Notes: generated from the letters alone by a model not told the origin. A stretch of DNA of 64,000 bases from Lysobacterales bacterium (GCA_028285525.1 JANQOZ010000007.1:1-64000), one strand, 5' to 3'; shown: positions 38,378 to 50,231, counted from the first letter of the stretch. Program-made: numbers and translations.

Positions 38378-40192
38378 CTAGGAACGTACGGGCAGCAGGT
38401 CGGTCGCCCGACGACCGTAACGCTTGGCCAGCGTCGGTGAGAACACGACAACGCAGTTCCGCCCGTCCGATTTCGCCTGATAGAGCGCGCGGTCTGCGGC
38501 GTCAAAAAAGGCGGCCGCGGTGGTGAAGCGGTCGTCTTGCATGGAAACCACGCCGATGCTCACCGAGAGGCGCTCGCCGCGCATGTCCGCGTCACTGACG
38601 CTCGTCCTCAGGTGCTCGGCGATTTCGCTCGCCGCGGCGCGGTCGGCGCCGGGCATGATGATGGCAAACTCTTCGCCGCCGTAGCGGCACACATGATCCT
38701 GCGGTCTGGCATTGTCCTGCAGCACCGCCCCTACCATCTTTAGGGCTTCGTCACCCCAGGCGTGACCGAACCGGTCGTTGAAGTTCTTAAAATGATCGAT
38801 GTCGACCATCAGCAGCGCCAGCGCCTGCCCCTGGCCGCCGGCACGCTCAAATTCTGCCAGCAGCTTTTCATCGAAGAAGCGACGATTGGCCAGGCTGGTC
38901 AATGGGTCGGTGAGGCTCTGACGCTGCAGGGAGTCCACCCGGCTGGCCAAGCCGAGCGACAGCAGCACCATTTCGATCAGGGAACCGATCTGCTGCCCGT
39001 GTTCCGTCACCACGTTGTGAGGCAGCAGCCCAAAGGTTTTCAGCATGTAGGCCATGACGCCGAGCAGGAGCGCTCCCCAGGCGAGCATGAAGTAGCGCGC
39101 CGGCCGATACCCCTTAAGCAAGGTGACAGTGCCACAGAGGATGATCTGCGACACCACAATCACCGTGAGCCCCGAAAGCGGCACGATGATCGAGCGATAA
39201 GGCAGGAACGATCCAACGACCAGCACGACCGCGATCACCCCCTGGAGATAGATCGAAATCGTATCCAGCCGTGGCGCGTTTTCCGAAAGCCTCAGAAAGA
39301 CCCGGGTGAAGTGCATGCCAAAAAACAGCGACAGCGTCAGCATCACCACCAGCGACTGGTTGGCCCACCAGGGCATGTCGGGCCAGAAGTATTGAAAGGC
39401 GAAACCGTTGTTGACGGCAAAGTAGATGCCGTAGCTGGCCACATAAAGCAGGTAATAAAGAAACGCTTTGTCCTTCACCGTCAGCCACATCAGCAGGTTG
39501 TACAGCACCAGCACGACAAAGCCGCCGTAGTAGATGCCGAAAGCCAGCTGCTGACGGCTGATGCTCGCGAGCATCGGGGTCTGCTGACTAGCGGTCAGGC
39601 TGATGTTGACCGAACCGCGGGTGAAATAGCGGAAGTAAAAGTCGACCTGCGCGCCGGCCGGGAGGACGACCGGAAAAATGTAGTCCTTATGCGCGATGTC
39701 CCTGGTGGCAAACGGCAGGCGGTCACCGGTCTGACGATGAACCCAGCCGCCGGCCTGTTGTGGATCTCGGTACCAGAGGTCGAGGTGATCAAGAAGGGGA
39801 TACGATTCGCGAAGTAACAGCGCCTGATCGATCTGGCTGTCGTTGGCGAAGGTCACGCGAACCCACCAGGCCGACGAGCTGAAGCCGTAGTTCGGAGACC
39901 CGTCAACGGCGCTGAACTGCTCAGCGTAGGATGCGGAGCTGATCTCATCGATGCTCAGCGCCGCTTCCGTATCCTCAAACACGGCGATATGCGGCGTGAG
40001 ATCGAGCACCTCTGATGTGAGCGCTACGGATATGGGGTTGGGCTGCGAGGCTGCGCTTCGACTGGCGGTGCCGGACAGAGCGTCGTCGGCGGCTTGAGAA
40101 GTGGCGGCCGGCAGAGGCTCGGGCTGCTGGGCCAGCGCCAATACAGGCAACAACAAAAGAAGCCCGATAGATTTCAGTTGCCGGACCCCCAA
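38378..40192 (-). CDS. 7TMR-DISM diguanylate cyclase
   Basis: Membrane diguanylate cyclase of 604 aa, making c-di-GMP. A signal sequence (SIGLLLLLPVLALAQQ) is followed by an extracellular 7TMR-DISMED2 domain (about residues 45-180, with YPLLDHLDLWYRD), which usually binds a carbohydrate or similar ligand. The 7TM block lies at about 205-400. The GGDEF domain is at 430-595, with CRYGGEEFAIIMPG near 505. The inhibitory site RPQD sits exactly five residues before GGEEF, so product inhibition is likely. The start is a TTG without a clear ribosome binding site; an alternative start nearby is possible. It is divergent from the first RoxA-like gene by 137 bases, so its ligand may be linked to that unit. 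Confidence 0.92.
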   Translation of the reverse strand: MGVRQLKSIGLLLLLPVLALAQQPEPLPAATSQAADDALSGTASRSAASQPNPISVALTSEVLDLTPHIAVFEDTEAALSIDEISSASYAEQFSAVDGSPNYGFSSSAWWVRVTFANDSQIDQALLLRESYPLLDHLDLWYRDPQQAGGWVHRQTGDRLPFATRDIAHKDYIFPVVLPAGAQVDFYFRYFTRGSVNISLTASQQTPMLASISRQQLAFGIYYGGFVVLVLYNLLMWLTVKDKAFLYYLLYVASYGIYFAVNNGFAFQYFWPDMPWWANQSLVVMLTLSLFFGMHFTRVFLRLSENAPRLDTISIYLQGVIAVVLVVGSFLPYRSIIVPLSGLTVIVVSQIILCGTVTLLKGYRPARYFMLAWGALLLGVMAYMLKTFGLLPHNVVTEHGQQIGSLIEMVLLSLGLASRVDSLQRQSLTDPLTSLANRRFFDEKLLAEFERAGGQGQALALLMVDIDHFKNFNDRFGHAWGDEALKMVGAVLQDNARPQDHVCRYGGEEFAIIMPGADRAAASEIAEHLRTSVSDADMRGERLSVSIGVVSMQDDRFTTAAAFFDAADRALYQAKSDGRNCVVVFSPTLAKRYGRRATDLLPVRS

Positions 40193-40329: not shown

Positions 40330-42009
40330 ATGCGCAAACTGATGCTGATCGCGTCGGTGTTAACCCTGCTTACCCTGGCGGCATGGTTCACACTCTCGCG
40401 TGAGCGGGCCCAGGTCGGGCCGGCGCTAAAAACCGGCGACGCCGTCAACGGGTCGCCTGACGTGATATCGCTTGAGCAGGGCTGGACCGCGGCCACGCGC
40501 AGCTGGCTGTACTCGGCCAGTTTTGGCTCGCGGCTGATGCCATACGCCTGGGTCTCCGCTTTGGAGCAGGCCAAAAGCAGCGATCCGTGGCTTGATCCAG
40601 CGAACGTGGAGGCGCTCGGCCTCCTGCGGCAGCAAGCAGACTCCCACAACCCAGACGCTCTGCCCGTGGGCTTCACCCGCGACGTCGACGAGCAGGGTGA
40701 GGCGTGGGTGGGCCTCGGCTGCGCAGCCTGTCACGTCGGGCAAATTCACTTCGGCGACAAGCGCCTGCGCATCGACGGCGGGCCAGCGATGCTGAATTTC
40801 ACCGCGTTCGAAAAATCGCTGCTTGACGCAATGAACGCGACCCTCGAGCAGCCGCAGAAGTTCGCCCGCTTTGCCGCGGCGCTGGGTCAGTCGGCTGACC
40901 GCGAAGGACCGCTCGCTAAGCGGCTAAGGGAGACCGCGGCGAACCTGTCGATCCGGCACCAGATGAACCAAACATCGGTGCCTTACGGCTTTGGCCGGCT
41001 TGACGCGTTTGGCCAGATTTTCAACGCAGCGACCGAAACGTTCACTAACCAGCCGGGCAACAGCCAGCCGCCGGATGCCCCGGTGAGCTACCCGATGCTG
41101 TGGAGCGCGCCGCACCTGGACCTGGTGCAGTGGAACGGATCGGCACCTAACTCGGGGCCCGGGCCACTGATTCAAAACGTGACGACCGCCATCGCGGTGT
41201 ATGGAACGGTTGAGCTGGCGCAACCGGAGTCCGAACTGGCCTCAGCGCGCGGCTACCGCTCGAGCGTCAACTTCGACAACCTCGGCAAGATCCAGAACCA
41301 CATGTATGAGCTGACGGCCCCAGCCTGGCCTGAGGATATTCTTGGTCCGATCGATCGCGAGGCGGCTGAGCGCGGCGGCGCGCTTTACGACGATCTTTGC
41401 CTGCAGTGTCACGAGCGTATCGATCGATCGGACCCGCAGCGCAAGCTGCGAGCGGTCCTGACGCCCGTGGACGAAATCGGGACCGACCCGACGGCGGCAG
41501 GCAACTTCATCAGCAACACGGCGGCCACCGGACCACTGCAGGGACAGCATCAGGCGGTGGTGGCCGGCGAACGCTTTGGGGCCTCGTCCAGCGCCATTCT
41601 GATGGTGGTGAACCTCGCGCTTGGCGCCACGCTGCGGCATCCGGTCGAGGCGCTGCACGCGACGCTGACCGGCTATCACGACGTGCTCAAAGCCAAACTC
41701 GACGACCGACCGAACTTCTATAAAGCGCGCGCCCTCGACGGCATCTGGGCGTCGCCGCCTTATCTTCACAACGGATCGGTACCCAGCCTCTATGAGCTGC
41801 TGCTGCCAGCCGAGCAGCGCAGTCAAGAGTATTACGTGGGTTCACGGGAGTATCAGCCCAAGTTTCTGGGCCTTGAGACCGATAAGACGACCCATAGCAG
41901 CCTGTTCGATACGACGTTGCCGGGCAACAGCAACAGCGGCCATGAGTACGGCGCCGAGCTGACCGAAGCACAGCGAATGGATTTGCTGGAACACCTAAAG
42001 ACGCTCTAG
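40330..42009 (+). CDS. RoxA-like di-heme c-type protein 1
   Basis: Exported di-heme protein of 559 aa, of the group that includes the rubber oxygenases RoxA/RoxB and long di-heme peroxidase-like proteins. The N-terminal membrane signal is LIASVLTLLTLAAWFTL. Two CXXCH haem sites are visible: CAACH at residues 131-135 and CLQCH at 357-361, so both are c-type haems. The long C-terminal part has IWASPPYLHNGSVPSLYELL, a motif shared by this group. It is longer than the BCCP-type di-heme peroxidases (about 320 aa). The next gene, of the same family, begins nine bases after its stop. It probably acts in the periplasm or outside on a lipid or polymer, but the substrate is unknown. Confidence 0.85.
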   Translation: MRKLMLIASVLTLLTLAAWFTLSRERAQVGPALKTGDAVNGSPDVISLEQGWTAATRSWLYSASFGSRLMPYAWVSALEQAKSSDPWLDPANVEALGLLRQQADSHNPDALPVGFTRDVDEQGEAWVGLGCAACHVGQIHFGDKRLRIDGGPAMLNFTAFEKSLLDAMNATLEQPQKFARFAAALGQSADREGPLAKRLRETAANLSIRHQMNQTSVPYGFGRLDAFGQIFNAATETFTNQPGNSQPPDAPVSYPMLWSAPHLDLVQWNGSAPNSGPGPLIQNVTTAIAVYGTVELAQPESELASARGYRSSVNFDNLGKIQNHMYELTAPAWPEDILGPIDREAAERGGALYDDLCLQCHERIDRSDPQRKLRAVLTPVDEIGTDPTAAGNFISNTAATGPLQGQHQAVVAGERFGASSSAILMVVNLALGATLRHPVEALHATLTGYHDVLKAKLDDRPNFYKARALDGIWASPPYLHNGSVPSLYELLLPAEQRSQEYYVGSREYQPKFLGLETDKTTHSSLFDTTLPGNSNSGHEYGAELTEAQRMDLLEHLKTL

Positions 42010-42018
42010 GGGGAACAG

Positions 42019-44340
42019 ATGAGTGACGAACAACCGGGCGCTGTTCGGCGGCTGATCGGCAGCGTGGCTGGACTCACGCTTGGGCGGCTCTTTAAGTGGG
42101 CGCTCGTCGTCGGGCTGGCGCTGGCGCTCGTGGCTGCAGCCGGGTTTGCGGTTTTTGTGCTGGCTCCGGTCACCACCATTCCGGCCTACGAGCCGATCGA
42201 CGAGACCGTGTACCTGGGTCAGGGCTGGGGTCTTGAGCGCGGCTCGCAGCCGCGGCAAACCTATTACTACACCCCTCAGGGCACCAGCCTGCCGCAGGGG
42301 GAAACGGTCAACCCGCTGCGCTACGACTGGTTCGTCCATCTTGAGCTGCCGTTCAGCCGGGAACGATTCGCTGCGCCGGACCATCTGAGGCGCTTTCGGT
42401 TTTTGGTTGACAGCGAGCCCACGCCCGCCAACCCGGACCTCCTGCCGGTGGGCTTCACGCGCCACTTTAATCCGCTGATCGGCGAGGACGTGCTGGATCT
42501 GACGTGTGCCGCCTGCCACTCCGGTGAAATTCACTACACCAAAGACGGCAAGCGGTACGCCCTGCGAATCGACGGTGGCCAGGCCATGCACGCATTTACC
42601 GACATGAGCCGAGGCAACTTTGGTCCTGTGCTATTGGCGTCCCTGATCGCCACCTATGCCAACCCGCTCAAGTTCAGCCGCTTTGCCGAAGCCGTGATCG
42701 GTCCGAACTATCCGGAAGGGAAAAGCCGGCTTCGCTCGCAGCTGGGCCAAACGATCGGCGCGTTCCTGAAGCAGGGACAGAACAATCCGCTGCGGCATCT
42801 ATACCCGATGACCGAGGGTTTTGGGCGCACCGATGCGCTCGGGCGAATCGCCAACACGGTTTTTGGCGACCATCTGGTGCCGGCCAACTACGAGATATCC
42901 GACGCGCCGGTGAGCTTTCCCTACGTGTGGAATATCTGGAAGTTTGACTGGGTGCAGTACACGGGGTCGGTGAATCAGCCGCTTGCTCGGAACGTCGGTG
43001 AAGCGCTGGGCGTCGGCGCCATGATCAACCTGACCAACAGCTACGGCAGCCCGGTCCTCGCGGAGGACCGCTTTACCAGCTCGGTGGCCATCCGCGACCT
43101 GGTCAAGATCGAGCGAACGTTGCAGCAGCTCACGCCGCCGCAGTGGCCTGAGGAGATCCTGGGTCCGGTCGATCAGGCGAAGGCGGAAATCGGCAAGAAT
43201 CTCTTCCAGGACCTTTGCCAGCATTGCCACGGACCACATGTCGCCAGCCAGGCGCGTCAGGAGGCGCGGGCGCCCGGCAAACCAGCGCCGTCAACCGAGT
43301 GGCAAATCCCGGTAATCCCGGTATCGGAAATCGGAACCGACGCGGCGTCCGCCACGGGGTTCGTGGAGCGTCGCTACGATCTGACGGCTGCCGGCATCAC
43401 TGACGAGCAGGTTGCAGAACTGGTTGGCCCGCTGCTCGACGAGAGCCTGCGCCGCAACGGACGCTATCGGCTCCGAGAGGTGCTGACTGGGAGACAGCAG
43501 GCGGGTCTCGACGTCGGGCCGCTACCGACGCTGGTCGCGGACTACCCGCTTTCCGAGAAAACGCCGCCCGCCGCGGTGGATCAAGTTTTTGCACAGATCG
43601 CTGGCGCGCTCGACGACCTCTTACCCACCCGCCCATCTGCACGTGCCGATCAGCCGCCGCACGACGCTGTGGTGTGTGAACTCGATTGCCAAACCGATCA
43701 CCTCTACTGGCTCACAACCCAGGGGCGACAGCACGCGAAGGCGACGCTGGCCGCGGTGGACACCTCGAAGGTCAGTCTCGGCCAGGGGCTCAACATCGTG
43801 GGGCTGCTCATCAAAAATCGATTTTTTGAGGCCTACGGCGTCTCTGCTGAGGAGAAGGCCTGCATCCAGGGCTTCGGCATTCTGGACCTCCCGCAGGTGG
43901 TCGACGGCTACAAACCCCGGCCGCTCGAAGGCGTCTGGGCAACCCCACCCTTCCTGCACAACGGCTCGGTACCCAGCCTCTATCACATGCTGCTGCCGCC
44001 GGAGGAACGCCCATCGCGCTTTTTTGTCGGCCGCCAGGAATATGATCCGCGCCACGCCGGCTACGTCAGCGAACCGGTAGCGGGCAGCGAAAATCACGGA
44101 TTCTGGTTTGACGCCAGCCTGCCCGGCAACCGGAATGCGGGACACAGCTTCACCGCCAGCGCTGAAACCTGGCAGGCCCATCGGCGAGACCCGGCGGCAA
44201 ACCCGCTGCCCGGCGGCGTGATCGGCCCGCAGTTGTCGGACGAGCAGCGCTGGGCGCTGGTGGAGTATCTGAAAATCCACAAGGACGAGCCCGGGACACC
44301 GGCTGACTTTGAGCCCGTGGCCTGCGGACCCTGGCATTGA
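42019..44340 (+). CDS. RoxA-like di-heme c-type protein 2
   Basis: A 773-aa relative of the preceding protein, with a transmembrane anchor (WALVVGLALALVAAAGFAVF) at about residues 30-50 in place of a cleaved signal. Two haem sites are present, CAACH at 163-167 and CQHCH at 400-404. The extra length lies mainly between the second haem site and the C-terminal region. FATPPFLHNGSVPSLYHMLL-like sequence (WATPPFLHNGSVPSLYHMLL) marks the family C-terminal block. ATG 42019 follows a GGGGGAA-like site. Its stop overlaps the start of the patatin gene by four bases, so the di-heme protein and the lipase are made together. The pair with gene 1 suggests a hetero-complex or two-step electron transfer. Confidence 0.83.
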   Translation: MSDEQPGAVRRLIGSVAGLTLGRLFKWALVVGLALALVAAAGFAVFVLAPVTTIPAYEPIDETVYLGQGWGLERGSQPRQTYYYTPQGTSLPQGETVNPLRYDWFVHLELPFSRERFAAPDHLRRFRFLVDSEPTPANPDLLPVGFTRHFNPLIGEDVLDLTCAACHSGEIHYTKDGKRYALRIDGGQAMHAFTDMSRGNFGPVLLASLIATYANPLKFSRFAEAVIGPNYPEGKSRLRSQLGQTIGAFLKQGQNNPLRHLYPMTEGFGRTDALGRIANTVFGDHLVPANYEISDAPVSFPYVWNIWKFDWVQYTGSVNQPLARNVGEALGVGAMINLTNSYGSPVLAEDRFTSSVAIRDLVKIERTLQQLTPPQWPEEILGPVDQAKAEIGKNLFQDLCQHCHGPHVASQARQEARAPGKPAPSTEWQIPVIPVSEIGTDAASATGFVERRYDLTAAGITDEQVAELVGPLLDESLRRNGRYRLREVLTGRQQAGLDVGPLPTLVADYPLSEKTPPAAVDQVFAQIAGALDDLLPTRPSARADQPPHDAVVCELDCQTDHLYWLTTQGRQHAKATLAAVDTSKVSLGQGLNIVGLLIKNRFFEAYGVSAEEKACIQGFGILDLPQVVDGYKPRPLEGVWATPPFLHNGSVPSLYHMLLPPEERPSRFFVGRQEYDPRHAGYVSEPVAGSENHGFWFDASLPGNRNAGHSFTASAETWQAHRRDPAANPLPGGVIGPQLSDEQRWALVEYLKIHKDEPGTPADFEPVACGPWH

Positions 44341-46409
44341 CCGCCAGCGAATACACCAAAGACTTCGACCAGGTGCTGCAGGATGAGCAGGCCTGGCTAA
44401 GGCAGCGGCGGGCAGCGGTTGATCTGCCCGAGGACGAAGAGCAGCTAGCGGTATGTTTTTCGGGCGGCGGGATTCGTTCGGCGGTCTTCAACCTGGGCGT
44501 CCTCCAGGGATTGGAGTCGATGGGGCTGTTGAAACGGGTCGATTACCTGTCCTCGGTTTCCGGTGGCGGCTACATCGCATCGTGCCTCACCTGGCTGCGA
44601 CACCGACTCGGTCCCGAGGAAAGTGAGACCTTTTACGCGCCGCTGGCGAACGAGCCGGGGACGGTGGTGGACTGGCTTCGCAACAACGGCAGCTACCTGA
44701 TCAGCCCCCGGGGCTTTTCGATCTGGACGCTGCTGGCGGCGATCCTCGCCGGCACGCTGCTGAACCTCGCCGTGATGGTGCCGCCGATGCTCCTGCTCGT
44801 GACGCTGGCCGCCCAGGACTGGCTGCCGCTTGATTTTCCGCCCTGGCTGCTGATCCCCGGCGGCACCCCGCTACAGGGTCACGACGGTTTTGTCCTCGCG
44901 CTGTATCTGTCCGGCGCCGCAGCGCTGACCTACCTGCTGATGGTGCTCGCCTTCGCCGCGATGAGCGCCGCACCGTTTGCCCGTTCAGGCGTTGGGCTGG
45001 TCGACGTCCGCAGGCTGATGGGAAACCTGATGTTTAGCGCCATTGCTCTGTTTGCCGTCGGCATGGTGCCCGTCCTGCACAGTCTGGACGACCTCGCCAT
45101 GCGCCACCTGAGCTCCGAGCTGGCGGCGGCAACCACCCGCAGCCTGACCTATATGATCCCGATGGTCACCGGCCTGGTCACCATGATCCGGAAACAGTCC
45201 GCCAAAACCGGCAACGGTCCGGCGATCGGGCTCGGGCTGTTTCTCTATGGGTGCCTCGTGCTGACCTATCACCTCGTCGCGCATGTCGACCTGCTGGACA
45301 GCCTGGTGTTCGTCTCCATGCTCGGCCTCTCAGTTGTGCTGGCGCTGGGTTGCGACGTGAATCTGATCTCCATGCACCACTACTATCGGGCCCGCATGGC
45401 GCACGCTTTTATGCCCCGAACCCGCGAGGGTGACAGCAGTGAAGCCGGCGACCGGCAGGCCATGGCCTTCAGACTTGAGCAGGTGGTGCCCGAGTCGGGC
45501 GGACCGTTTCATCTGCTCAACGCCAATATGAACACCACCTCATCCCACTCCGTGAAGCTGCGCGGCCGGGGTGGCGATAACTTCGTTTTCTCACCGCTCT
45601 ACTGCGGCGCCACCTCAACGGGCTATCGAAAAACCAACAACTTTCTCAACGGCGCGATGGAGCTATCCACCGCGCTGACCATCTCCGGCGCCGCGCTCGA
45701 CCCAAATACGCCGACAACCCGTGCGCGACCCATCGCCTTCCTGATGGCCCTGTTCAACCTTCGGCTCGGATACTGGATTCGAAGCCCCCGCACCACCGGT
45801 CGGCGACCGCTTGCGGCGTGGCTGGCGTTTATGACCCGCGAGATGCTCGGCGTCGGCCTCAACGAAAAGGCCGGCTACCTCCACCTCTCCGACGGCGCCC
45901 ATTTTGAGAACCTCGGCCTGTATGAACTGCTGCGCCGACGCTGCCGCTTTATCATCGCCACCGACGCCGGCTCCGATCCCAAGCTCACGATGGACGAAAT
46001 GGGCAAAGCAATCCAGCGGGCACGCGTGGATTTCCGGGCTGACGTATCGCTGAACGTGGATCCGCTGTTCGACGAAATGGATAAGCCGCTGGCCGACTGC
46101 GCCCACGCCCTGGGCCGCATCACCTATGCGGACGGCAGTACCGGGCAGATCCTTTATCTTCGGCCGATGATGTGCCGGGGCATGACGGCCGACCTTTACG
46201 CCTTCTGGCGCAAGGACCCGGCGTTTCCGAATGACCCCACGGCGGATCAGTTTTACGACGAGGAGCACTTTGAGGCTTACCGCGAGCTGGGCCTGCAGAT
46301 CATCAGGCGCGTAGGGCTCGGCAAAGGCTCGCTGGCCGACGTGCCTCTGAATGACCTATTCGCCAACGTTCGAGAACACCAGGAAGAACACGCGGAAGAA
46401 GCCGGCTAG
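44337..46409 (+). CDS. Multi-pass membrane patatin-like phospholipase
   Basis: Predicted lipid acyl hydrolase with a Ser-Asp dyad, 690 aa. The oxyanion loop is FSGGGIRSAVFNLG (residues 41-54). The nucleophile is Ser75 in SSVSGGGYIAS, closer to the cPLA2 wording than to GxSxG. The dyad Asp is D519 in LSDGAHFENLG. Between them lies an insert with about six transmembrane helices, such as AILAGTLLNLAVMVPPMLLL, FVLALYLSGAAALTYLLMVL and LDSLVFVSMLGLSVVLALG, so the active site is tied to the inner membrane. The only possible start is a TTG inside the stop of the di-heme gene (TTGA overlap), which couples their translation. It probably releases fatty acids or lysolipids used by the di-heme proteins. 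Confidence 0.85.
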   Translation: MTASEYTKDFDQVLQDEQAWLRQRRAAVDLPEDEEQLAVCFSGGGIRSAVFNLGVLQGLESMGLLKRVDYLSSVSGGGYIASCLTWLRHRLGPEESETFYAPLANEPGTVVDWLRNNGSYLISPRGFSIWTLLAAILAGTLLNLAVMVPPMLLLVTLAAQDWLPLDFPPWLLIPGGTPLQGHDGFVLALYLSGAAALTYLLMVLAFAAMSAAPFARSGVGLVDVRRLMGNLMFSAIALFAVGMVPVLHSLDDLAMRHLSSELAAATTRSLTYMIPMVTGLVTMIRKQSAKTGNGPAIGLGLFLYGCLVLTYHLVAHVDLLDSLVFVSMLGLSVVLALGCDVNLISMHHYYRARMAHAFMPRTREGDSSEAGDRQAMAFRLEQVVPESGGPFHLLNANMNTTSSHSVKLRGRGGDNFVFSPLYCGATSTGYRKTNNFLNGAMELSTALTISGAALDPNTPTTRARPIAFLMALFNLRLGYWIRSPRTTGRRPLAAWLAFMTREMLGVGLNEKAGYLHLSDGAHFENLGLYELLRRRCRFIIATDAGSDPKLTMDEMGKAIQRARVDFRADVSLNVDPLFDEMDKPLADCAHALGRITYADGSTGQILYLRPMMCRGMTADLYAFWRKDPAFPNDPTADQFYDEEHFEAYRELGLQIIRRVGLGKGSLADVPLNDLFANVREHQEEHAEEAG

Positions 46410-46487: not shown

Positions 46488-47276
46488 ATGAAACATCGCC
46501 CCCACTTCACCCTCGCGCTCCTGCTGCTCTCATCGGTTGCCTTAGCCCAAGGCGGAATTACGAGCGGCTATGGCGCGATCGCGGACGTCGGCTTTTACGA
46601 CAGCTGCGCCACAATCTGCCTCCGGCCCGGGGGGCTCGATGACCAGCGGGTCGACGGCGGCGAGTTTTTTGAGAACGCTGCGGCAGACCTTTTCAACAGC
46701 GGTACCGAGAACGCCTTTGGTTCAGCCTCGTTTAACGGTGATGCGTTCAGCCCGCTGCTGCGCGCCCGAGCCCGTTCGCCGCTGGATGACAACAACGCGG
46801 TCGACGCGATCGTGACCGCGATCCAGGGCTATACGTTTATGGGCGCGTCGCCGGAGACCTTCACGATACTGGCTTCACTGACCGGCACGGTCGATCAGCC
46901 CGACAACAGGGCTGAAGGCGTGATCCGAGGTCGAATTGCGGTCTACCGCTATGAGAACGCCACGTTCAGCACCGACTTCGCGACCTTCATTTTTGAGGAG
47001 GTTGCCGGAGAAGGTGAGGTGATCGATCAGGCCCAGCTCTTTCTTCTGCCGACCCTGGATCTCTCCGAAGACACCCTGGAGTTCACGCTCAATCCTGGTG
47101 ATGAGGTCTACGTGTTTATGCAGCTGGAGAGTAAGAGCGAGCGTGGTGCCGTAGTCGATGCCACCAACACGTTCGGCGTTTCCTTTACCAGCGGTGATTC
47201 AGCGATGCTCAGCCCGGTAGTCGAGCCACTCCCTGAACTGGTGTTCTCCGACGGATTCGAGACCCTCGCCCCCTAG
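46488..47276 (+). CDS. Secreted protein with C-terminal DGFE tag
   Basis: Exported protein of 262 aa that I do not recognise. The signal peptide is FTLALLLLSSVALAQGG. The mature part has an N-terminal cysteine pair (YDSCATICLRPGG) and a beta-rich body ending in LEFTLNPGDEVYVFMQLESK, which resembles secreted jelly-roll proteins. It ends in ELVFSDGFETLAP, one of five copies of the tag in this window. It follows the patatin gene by 78 bases, with its own ATG. It may be independent of the upstream operon, and it converges with the GGDEF gene. Function unknown. Confidence 0.65.
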   Translation: MKHRPHFTLALLLLSSVALAQGGITSGYGAIADVGFYDSCATICLRPGGLDDQRVDGGEFFENAAADLFNSGTENAFGSASFNGDAFSPLLRARARSPLDDNNAVDAIVTAIQGYTFMGASPETFTILASLTGTVDQPDNRAEGVIRGRIAVYRYENATFSTDFATFIFEEVAGEGEVIDQAQLFLLPTLDLSEDTLEFTLNPGDEVYVFMQLESKSERGAVVDATNTFGVSFTSGDSAMLSPVVEPLPELVFSDGFETLAP

Positions 47277-47330: not shown

Positions 47331-50231
47331 TCACGCCGATCCGGGAATGGAAAAGACGCGGTTTTTGCCGCTGTCTTTGCCGGCCAGCAGGCAGGCGTCA
47401 GCGCGATTGATGGTATTCATCGGCGATTCACCGGGCGCCATCTGCGCCAGACCGATGGTGATGGAGACGGGCGTCTCGGCAAGGCTGCTGTCCGGCTGCT
47501 GACTGCTGACCGCCAGGCGAACCTTTTCCATCGCCTCGTGAGCGGTTTCCATATCGGTCGAACGAAACTGGATCACAAACTCCTCGCCGCCCCAGCGGGC
47601 CACCAGCGAGTTTGCCGGCGCCGCGCGCTTCAGCACGTCCGCGACGTGGCGCAACACCCTGTCTCCCACCTCATGGCCATGCTGATCGTTGACCTGCTTG
47701 AAGTTGTCCGCGTCGAGCAGCGCAAAGTAACGCTGCGAATCAGGCGCCTCCGCTTCGACCTGCTTGAGAAACCCGCGGCGGTTGGCGAGCTTGGTCAGGT
47801 GGTCCGTTGCGGCGGACTTGGCGAGCGACTGATTTGCCTCGCGCAGCGCGCGCGTCTGGCGCTCGACCTCGGCCGTCAGCACGCGGTTGCGATCGCGGAT
47901 ACGCTGCGTGTTCCAGAAGCTGAGAAGGAATACCGCCAGCAGCAGCGTTCCCACGGCAGCCGCCTGACCGGGGACCGTCTGCCACCAGGCCGGGTCCACA
48001 ACAATCGGCAGCACCGTTGACGCTCGATTCCAGATGCCGTTGGCGTTGGCACCCTGAAGCTCGAAGCGATACTCCCCCGGGGCGAGACCGGTCAGCAGCA
48101 CCTCGGGGTCGCCGGTCGCCTCGGACCAGTCGTCATCGTCACCGAGCAGGCGCCAGCGGAAACGATTGGCCGACGGATTACGAAAATCCGACGCGAGGTA
48201 GCGTACGCGAACGGTGGACTGGCCGGGGCTTAACGCCATGGGCTGCTGAGACGGCACCGGCTGACCGTCAATCCAGGCTCTGGTAATGGCCAGCTGCGGC
48301 GGCTGGGGATTGAGCAGGACCTGATCAGGCAGGAAGCTGACGAAGCCGCCAAGACCGCCGAAGTACACGCGATTGTTCTTCCCAACATACCCGGCGCGCG
48401 CGTAGAACTCTTCGACCAGCAGCCCATCAGCGGTGGTAAATCGGGTTACGCTGAGCGTCGACGGATCGATGGCCACCACCCCTCGGGTTGTTCCCGCCCA
48501 GATTCGACCCGCGCCCTCGGCCAGGCGCTGCACGGCGGTGTTGGGGAATTCGCGAATCAGGTTGACCGACAGGCTCTCGCCGGTCACCGGATCAAACCGG
48601 CTCAGGCCGAAACTGGTGGCGATCCACAGCGCCGCGTCGGTTGGCAGCAGATCGTGTATCAGGCCTTCGATCGCGAGCGATTCGCGCTCGAAAGACGTAA
48701 TGACGCCCTGTGGATCGATCCGGGCGATGCCCGCATCCCATAGGCCCAGCCAGGTGGCGCCCAGTCCGTCCACCTCGATATCGCTGACCGCAACACCGGG
48801 AATTGACTCAGCACCGCCCCGCACCAGCTGCTTGAACGAGCCGTCGGGCCTGAAGCGGAAGAGTCCGTCAGTAAACGTTCCGACGTCAGTGGTGCCGTCT
48901 GGCGCCACGTTCACCGCCGTCACCATCATGCCTTTGACGGCATCGAACTGTGGCGCGGGCCCGAGCAATCCGCTGTCCGGGTCGAAGCGGAGGAGTCCAT
49001 CGTAGGTGCCAAGCAGTACGCCGTCGCCGCTGCGCTCCAGCCGATTGATTGAGAGCCCCTCGGTACCTGGAATCTGCTCGAGCTGGCCGCTGCCCTGATT
49101 TTTCTGGAGTCGCCACAGGCCTCGTCGCGATCCGATCAGCACATCGTCGGCGTCCAGCTCGATGAGCGTATCGGCCGTATCCAGACTGGAATCCAGAGAG
49201 AATCCGTCAAAGCCCCGCGCCGTCGGAAGCGCGAGGATGACTCCCGCTTCCCGGGTGGCGATCCAGCCGACGCCGGTTTCGTCAAAAAAGATCCGACGGA
49301 TGTTGCGGTCGGGGAAAAGACTCAGCTCTGAGCGGCCGAAGGGAGAAACGCGTTCACCGTTGCCGTCGAAAGCCACCAGGCCGGCGAGCGTTCCGGCCAG
49401 CACGTTGCCGGACGGCGACAGGGTCAGCGTGTTGATCAGCGGCAGGCCGTCCTGTACGCGCTTAAGCCCCACATCCGAACTACGATAAACCGCCTGATTA
49501 TCTGCCACCCACAAGAATTCGCCGTCGTGAAGCACCGCCCGGGGGTGGCCAGACCAGGCCGTGTCTGGGCGTACCTCGTCGCCATCCAGATCGAACAGCC
49601 CCCGGTCCGTGGCGGCCCAGACCTTGCCCGAAGGATCTTCGGTCAGCGACCAAACGCGGCCGAAACTACCGCCGTCGGGCAACTTGACCGGCACCAGCTC
49701 AGTGCTGGTGGCACTGTCCAGACGATAGAGGCCGTCATCGGCTGAGCCCACCCAGATCCGGCTCTCCCGATCCTCGAAAAGCACCTGGATTCGCTGCGGC
49801 GGCTGTTCAGGGTTCAGACGAGCAAAACGACCGTCAGAGTCGAGCAGGCGGTTGAGACCACCACCCCAGGTCCCGATCAGCACCTGGCCGCTGCGCGTAG
49901 CCAGAACTTCACCGGCAGCTGAATGCGAAATCGACGAAGAATTTGCCGGGTCGTGTAAGAACGCGTCAACGCGATAACCGTCGTAGCGATTGGCGCCACC
50001 CGCGGCAAGACCAAACCACATTTGGCCCTGGTTATCCCGCGAGACGCTGTAGACGGTTGAGTCGGACAGGCCGTCAGCCAGGGTCAGAACATCAAAGTGA
50101 ACGGCGCTGCGGCTGGACCAGATCGACGCGTCAGCCGCGTAAAGCAGCCGCGAACAACAACCCAGCAGGAGTAGACTGGTGAACCCGAGACGAACAGCAA
50201 TGGCGAGGCGGCTGGTCGGCAACGTCGGCAC
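47331..50231 (-). CDS. Reg_prop/Y_Y_Y ligand-sensing diguanylate cyclase
   Basis: Membrane-bound diguanylate cyclase of 966 aa. A signal sequence (LGFTSLLLLGCCSRLLYAAD) is followed by some 650 residues of Reg_prop beta-propeller repeats (SDSTVYSVSRDNQGQMWFG is typical), giving two seven-bladed propellers, and a Y_Y_Y domain (about 690-755, SEATGDPEVLLTGLAPGEYR) beside the membrane. A transmembrane helix (AAAVGTLLLAVFLLSFW) precedes the GGDEF domain (about 815-960), whose active-site loop is VARWGGEEFVIQF. The RxxD inhibitory site is absent at the expected place (PANS), unlike the DISM cyclase. The propeller/Y_Y_Y form is known from hybrid two-component sensors of glycans, here joined to GGDEF. 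The GTG start has no clear ribosome site. Confidence 0.9.
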   Translation of the reverse strand: MPTLPTSRLAIAVRLGFTSLLLLGCCSRLLYAADASIWSSRSAVHFDVLTLADGLSDSTVYSVSRDNQGQMWFGLAAGGANRYDGYRVDAFLHDPANSSSISHSAAGEVLATRSGQVLIGTWGGGLNRLLDSDGRFARLNPEQPPQRIQVLFEDRESRIWVGSADDGLYRLDSATSTELVPVKLPDGGSFGRVWSLTEDPSGKVWAATDRGLFDLDGDEVRPDTAWSGHPRAVLHDGEFLWVADNQAVYRSSDVGLKRVQDGLPLINTLTLSPSGNVLAGTLAGLVAFDGNGERVSPFGRSELSLFPDRNIRRIFFDETGVGWIATREAGVILALPTARGFDGFSLDSSLDTADTLIELDADDVLIGSRRGLWRLQKNQGSGQLEQIPGTEGLSINRLERSGDGVLLGTYDGLLRFDPDSGLLGPAPQFDAVKGMMVTAVNVAPDGTTDVGTFTDGLFRFRPDGSFKQLVRGGAESIPGVAVSDIEVDGLGATWLGLWDAGIARIDPQGVITSFERESLAIEGLIHDLLPTDAALWIATSFGLSRFDPVTGESLSVNLIREFPNTAVQRLAEGAGRIWAGTTRGVVAIDPSTLSVTRFTTADGLLVEEFYARAGYVGKNNRVYFGGLGGFVSFLPDQVLLNPQPPQLAITRAWIDGQPVPSQQPMALSPGQSTVRVRYLASDFRNPSANRFRWRLLGDDDDWSEATGDPEVLLTGLAPGEYRFELQGANANGIWNRASTVLPIVVDPAWWQTVPGQAAAVGTLLLAVFLLSFWNTQRIRDRNRVLTAEVERQTRALREANQSLAKSAATDHLTKLANRRGFLKQVEAEAPDSQRYFALLDADNFKQVNDQHGHEVGDRVLRHVADVLKRAAPANSLVARWGGEEFVIQFRSTDMETAHEAMEKVRLAVSSQQPDSSLAETPVSITIGLAQMAPGESPMNTINRADACLLAGKDSGKNRVFSIPGSA

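Follow-up and report, generated by a model that had tools for sequence, protein, structure and literature searches.

Genes of the cluster and their families

We analysed a stretch of 64,000 nucleotides from a Lysobacterales bacterium (GCA_028285525.1 JANQOZ010000007.1:1-64000; this whole stretch is called the window), which contains a cluster of four genes for two di-haem c-type proteins, a membrane patatin-like lipase and a diguanylate cyclase. The two di-haem proteins DH1 (40330-42009, 559 aa, with an N-terminal hydrophobic anchor) and DH2 (42019-44340, 773 aa, with one N-terminal transmembrane anchor) are followed on the plus strand by PAT (44337-46409, 690 aa), a lipase of the patatin/cytosolic phospholipase A2 (cPLA2) type, whose TTG start overlaps the stop codon of DH2 in a 4-nt TTGA junction (44337-44340). 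On the minus strand, the cyclase DGC (38378-40192, 604 aa) combines 7TMR-DISMED2, 7TMR-DISM_7TM and GGDEF domains, all scoring over the Pfam cut-off (119.6, 187.1 and 153.1 bits), and has an intact GGEEF motif, which is invariant in 11 aligned orthologues. On re-checking, the gene order, spacing, haem sites and lipase motifs of the original prediction, which had been made from this DNA sequence, were all exact, and the divergent DISM-type cyclase named there was confirmed by its Pfam domains. The TTGA overlap is likewise present, and the recurrence of a 4-nt NTGA junction in at least 10 related loci suggests that DH2 and PAT are translationally coupled.

As predicted, DH1 and DH2 are members of one family. 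With 571 and 487 bits, both lie far over the 150-bit cut-off of NCBIfam NF040606, "di-heme-cytochrome C peroxidase", and they are homologous to each other (E 1e-48, with 35% identity over a stretch of 400 aa and 48% over another of 94 aa). They share the hallmarks of this family, namely two CXXCH sites, HNGSVP and a C-terminal G-N-x-N-x-G-H (DH1: CAACH/CLQCH at 131/357, PYLHNGSVP at 477, GNSNSGH at 532; DH2: CAACH/CQHCH at 163/400, PFLHNGSVP at 644, GNRNAGH at 703), and these columns are invariant or nearly so in 32 aligned members. In a tree of 77 proteins, the DH1 clade (11 rows, support 98) and the DH2 clade (18 rows, support 100) are separate inside NF040606, so the pair in the window is not a recent duplicate and a recent tandem duplication was rejected. 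Ordinary peroxidases were not indicated as their family: no model of MauG or of bacterial cytochrome c peroxidase (BCCP) was among the matches of DH1 or DH2 at E ≤ 1, and DH1 gave only a weak match to the MbnH family (E 0.14). Proteins with c-type haem sites are periplasmic, and together with the N-terminal anchors we infer from these sites that DH1 and DH2 reside in the periplasm. Several DH1 orthologues also carry a lipobox-like signal.

The link of both proteins to RoxA and to polymer oxidation, as originally proposed, is weak. Both carry the Pfam RoxA-like_Cyt-c segment, a profile search gave a weak match to the RoxA structure 4b2n (E 2.5e-21), and with RoxA, RoxB and RoxC they have in common the di-haem architecture and the GN-N-GH ligand region of this C-terminal segment. 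Nevertheless, it is highly improbable that DH1 and DH2 are rubber oxygenases acting on a polyisoprene-like polymer, as family scores, tree and anchoring all argue against it. With 47-61 bits for DH1 and 33-43 bits for DH2, the scores stay far under the 900-1000 bits required by the RoxA, RoxB and RoxC equivalog or exception models. In the tree, which was built without BCCP and MauG, the four Rox-like rows group by themselves (support 100), apart from the DH1 and DH2 clades; only this separation is usable, as the deep join is unsure given long branches where Rox meets another group. Besides, DH1 and DH2 are anchored and not secreted, and a conserved lipase in the membrane would serve no purpose in the cleavage of rubber. 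Among 339 genomes of the class, a search for the RoxB family found Rox-like proteins in two and none in the genome of the window.

For PAT, the Pfam Patatin profile (PF01734) matches at its positions 1-52 only, in the N-terminal part of the protein (32.1 bits, gathering threshold 27.7), and the motifs SGGGIR, SVSGGG (Ser75) and SDGA (Asp519) include the Gly-rich oxyanion motif and the Ser-Asp dyad shared with cPLA2 and patatins. In the AlphaFold model (pLDDT 85, pTM 0.85), six long helices at 129-338 lie between Ser75 and Asp519, which together with the motifs bears out the predicted six transmembrane helices between the catalytic residues. Foldseek returned human cytosolic phospholipases A2 as best matches of this model (1cjy, E 1.3e-6, probability 1.0, TM-scores of about 0.4; also 5iz5), from which PAT differs by these helices and by having no visible C2 domain. 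Since the short loops 211-218 and 286-293 hold one or two K/R and the three other loops none, the catalytic halves are predicted to be cytosolic.

Conservation of the gene set

A scan of named genomes with the NF040606 alignment yielded 80 loci, and the four best DH1 relatives, from a gammaproteobacterial metagenome-assembled genome (MAG; L111), two Dokdonella MAGs (L112, L114) and Marinobacterium nitratireducens (L113), all have DH1, DH2 and PAT. Among the other 76 loci, a PAT-family gene is found within the flanks only at L127, and three loci have any DISM-GGDEF gene, in each case far off and 25-28% identical to DGC. In a DH2 profile search across 399 genomes of the window's order, a strong orthologue (>1200 bits) was detected in 13, and addition of L112 and L113 gives a set of 15 genomes spanning two bacterial orders (L111 is counted there as G401 and L114 as G738, since the contigs coincide in length). 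In all 15, PAT comes next after DH2 and is read from the same strand, and the cluster includes a DISM-DGC orthologue (47-53% identity, 91% in the congener). The three-gene order is thus not unique to the genome in which it was first noticed. The unit, however, consists of four genes and not of three, as DGC, although divergent in the window, is a conserved member of the cluster rather than a mere neighbour.

The set occurs in four arrangements. In the window and its congener (G369), DGC is divergent from DH1-DH2-PAT, and in eight genomes (G401, L112, G738, G625, G645, G677, G658, G612) DGC is divergent from DH1 while DH2-PAT is convergent to it. A single-strand order DH1-DH2-PAT-DGC is found in L113, and DH2-PAT-DGC stands without DH1 in G372, G381, G389 and, where visible, G408. 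DH1 is present in 11 of the 15 genomes; G372, G381 and G389 gave no second match and the contig of G408 ends. Apparent frameshifts interrupt some genes in MAGs, namely DGC and PAT in L114/L217 and PAT in L223. DH2 is the core gene of the module.

With three DISM genes in the 6.2 Mb of the window's own genome, the probability that one lies within 6 kb by chance is about 0.6% for each locus; the 15 genomes are related and do not represent 15 independent events. That the four genes travel together without a joint function would be in line with the purely comparative nature of the evidence and with the rarity of the set in the order (the 13 genomes mentioned above). We judge this to be very improbable, because the set is kept through all four arrangements, the DH2-PAT junction is probably coupled and the compared loci have no other common flanks: no further flanking gene is convincingly common to the window, L111, L112, L113 and L114. 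The linkage is very likely real and functional. In a plasmid search with DH2, all matches were to rhizobial and related members of NF040606 at about 29-36%, without any close orthologue.

Directly 3' of PAT, the window encodes a secreted protein of 262 aa without Pfam match (46488-47276, plus strand), which is 90% identical in the congener (L209 15462-16247) and was found at none of the other loci. A second GGDEF protein of 966 aa (47331-50231, minus strand), with possible beta-propeller-like repeats by eye, is encoded immediately downstream of the module, and the congener has a same-strand GGDEF match at the corresponding position.

A second cluster form and the neighbours of related di-haem genes

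In five further genomes, DH2 and PAT are accompanied by a catalase-related protein and an SMP-30/gluconolactonase-like (SGL) lactonase-like protein, and the DISM-DGC is missing. Three of them (G376, G384, G398) have a DH2-like protein (44%) with the catalase-related gene directly 3', the SGL gene 5' and a convergent transmembrane patatin. In the other two (G1058, G1076), PAT, SGL, DH2 and the catalase-related gene share one strand in this order, and close by lies a GGDEF protein whose sensor belongs to a different class (MASE7-like). The catalase-related gene also adjoins the di-haem gene in 14 of 14 DH2-like loci taken from a phylum scan. As the cluster form with the DISM-DGC has no catalase-related gene, DH1 possibly takes its second position there, and both proteins may fill the same role of a second enzyme. 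In the window's own genome, a 3-row profile search, which is a weak negative, did not find a catalase-related gene.

These clusters also bear on the idea that the output of DGC regulates PAT, with the haem proteins providing a redox input sensed by DGC. The patatin CapV is activated by cyclic GMP-AMP. Such control of a patatin by a cyclic dinucleotide (PMC6401482, PMC9095652) is a precedent for a phospholipase under cyclic di-GMP (c-di-GMP) control, and PAT and DGC do occur together in all 15 clusters, even without DH1. On the other hand, the five DH2-PAT clusters just described lack the DISM-DGC and no nucleotide-binding domain was seen in PAT in the Pfam scan, which makes this explanation improbable.

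Similar neighbours are found across the 80 NF040606 loci: catalase-related proteins (PF00199) at 12, P450s at eight and an LCAT-like lipase upstream at five, the latter from related methylotrophs and hence not independent. L139 has a GDSL lipase and L124 a Tle1-like phospholipase. Neighbours of this kind are typical of oxylipin pathways and fit a repair of lipid hydroperoxides as well. Excision of oxidised acyl chains by phospholipases is a known general principle, and the main rival explanation is one of repair and detoxification, in which PAT would excise peroxidised acyl chains from the phospholipids of the membrane, DH1 and DH2 would reduce lipid hydroperoxides as periplasmic peroxidases and DGC would report oxidative damage of the membrane. 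The name of NF040606, di-haem cytochrome c peroxidase, speaks for this explanation, and the catalase-related neighbours suit peroxide removal no less than oxylipin making. We nonetheless regard it as rather unlikely, since the precedents in the wider family (Rox, PA2077) are oxygenases and not peroxidases, and P450 partners 20-40 nt downstream resemble hydroperoxide-converting pathways more than detoxification. In oxylipin pathways, an oxygenase receives its substrate from a lipase, and the hydroperoxide is then converted by a haem protein (PMC11719350). NF040606 genes resemble lipoxygenase or haem-dioxygenase cascades of this type in that a catalase-related or P450 gene lies behind them in repeated cases; the oxygenase would here be a c-type di-haem protein instead of a lipoxygenase or a fungal dioxygenase.

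Some further loci were observed in this context. A P450 gene overlaps an NF040606 gene or follows it within about 40 nt at L179 (9692-15176), L188 (9773-13223), L159, L168, L181 and L183, which may represent oxygenase-P450 pairs. RoxA-like di-haem proteins of a shorter type (about 490-600 aa) stand as tandem pairs at L216 (5681-12540), L088 (7018-10006) and L090 (3069-6368), and one pair is accompanied by genes for a catalase-related protein and an alpha/beta hydrolase. At L072 (7414-10849), a DH1-like gene (42%) is convergent with a different, soluble-type patatin. PAT-family transmembrane patatins also lie beside a different di-haem family (about 715 aa, motif PF[LF]HNNALG) at L091 (3533-8582) and L092 (6735-11525), which was too distant to be counted as the same system.

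A proposed role in lipid oxygenation and c-di-GMP signalling

Lipid oxidation is the best-supported role of the module, and the conserved set suggests an as yet undescribed pathway in which membrane fatty acids would be freed and oxidised and the event reported by c-di-GMP. PAT, whose family and motifs are established, would hydrolyse membrane lipids from its place in the inner membrane and free unsaturated acyl chains. The freed chain would then be oxygenated by DH2, held in the inner membrane by its anchor, and by the likewise anchored periplasmic DH1, as analogy and gene neighbours suggest. One haem protein may produce a hydroperoxide and the other convert it, a division of labour described for PA2077 and PA2078 on oleate, and in the other clusters the catalase-related haem protein could act as second enzyme in the place of DH1. 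Finally, given the conserved linkage, we hypothesise that the DISM-DGC senses the product, or the resulting state of the membrane, in the periplasm and responds with c-di-GMP. The earlier proposal that the lipase frees an acyl chain which the haem proteins oxidise is, polymers aside, partly supported: the gene set is conserved, and the catalase-related, P450, LCAT-like, GDSL and Tle1-like neighbours strengthen the case for lipid oxidation.

The nearest described system, compared here by its published description, is the PA2078-PA2077 operon of Pseudomonas aeruginosa (FadCcp; 10S-dioxygenase, 10S-DOX, and 7,10-diol synthase, 7,10-DS; together an oleate-diol synthase), in which two RoxA-like di-haem proteins convert oleate in the periplasm to 10-H(P)OME and 7,10-DiHOME, and both haems of PA2077 are needed (PMC4496055). 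Like DH1 and DH2, these are two adjacent periplasmic proteins with two CXXCH each and HNGSVP, and a two-step oxygenation of a lipid is proposed, which makes such a chemistry plausible for this fold class. In contrast, no lipase or diguanylate cyclase is reported in that operon, whose known regulator is the transcription factor OdsR (PMC6377657), and its proteins are paralogues with 43% identity, while DH1 and DH2 belong to separate NF040606 branches. The original prediction, which did not mention this operon, knew of no described pathway with the three-gene set. Indeed, literature searches for a system of a patatin with a di-haem protein or of a DISM protein with a lipase found none; paired RoxA-like di-haem enzymes for fatty acids are, however, known in the periplasm, so only the coupling to a lipase and a diguanylate cyclase looks new. 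A coupling of lipid-signal making to c-di-GMP turnover is also realized in the diffusible signal factor (DSF) system RpfF-RpfR (PMC6361424, PMC8846402), although with unrelated enzymes and a PAS sensor instead of DISMED2/7TM.

Several points weigh against this interpretation. Three of the 15 genomes lack DH1, which is therefore not essential to the core. With catalysis by PAT in the cytosol and the haem proteins in the periplasm, the freed chain must cross the membrane. A Foldseek search of the PDB with the DH2 model returned neither RoxA nor any other significant match, which speaks neither for nor against a RoxA fold, and in the literature searched no activity is described for any NF040606 member. 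Moreover, DISMED2 is predicted to bind carbohydrate (PMC8846402). Taking this into account, we consider a membrane-bound module for both oxygenation of fatty acids and signalling to be probable, if barely so, from sequence and analogy. A more specific version, in which the module would be a bacterial counterpart of the eicosanoid cascade, leading within one gene set from a membrane lipase of the cPLA2 kind via c-type di-haem dioxygenases to an oxidised lipid as ligand of the 7TMR-DISM cyclase, is tentative and in our view possible rather than probable.

In the literature searched, oxylipin making by di-haem proteins in bacteria is documented for P. aeruginosa, where the products of PA2077 and PA2078 promote biofilm formation and act as signals (PMC5155153, PMC6377657). 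According to a review, c-di-GMP networks have no known domain for the sensing of lipids (PMC8846402), and the DISM-DGC, with its constant place next to putatively lipid-oxidising enzymes, offers a concrete candidate for such a sensor. If the eicosanoid-like version were true, this would be the first identified lipid-sensing input to c-di-GMP for the 7TMR-DISM receptor class. For NF040606, the neighbourhood ties a large family in several phyla to lipases and hydroperoxide-handling haem proteins and thereby offers it a testable function.

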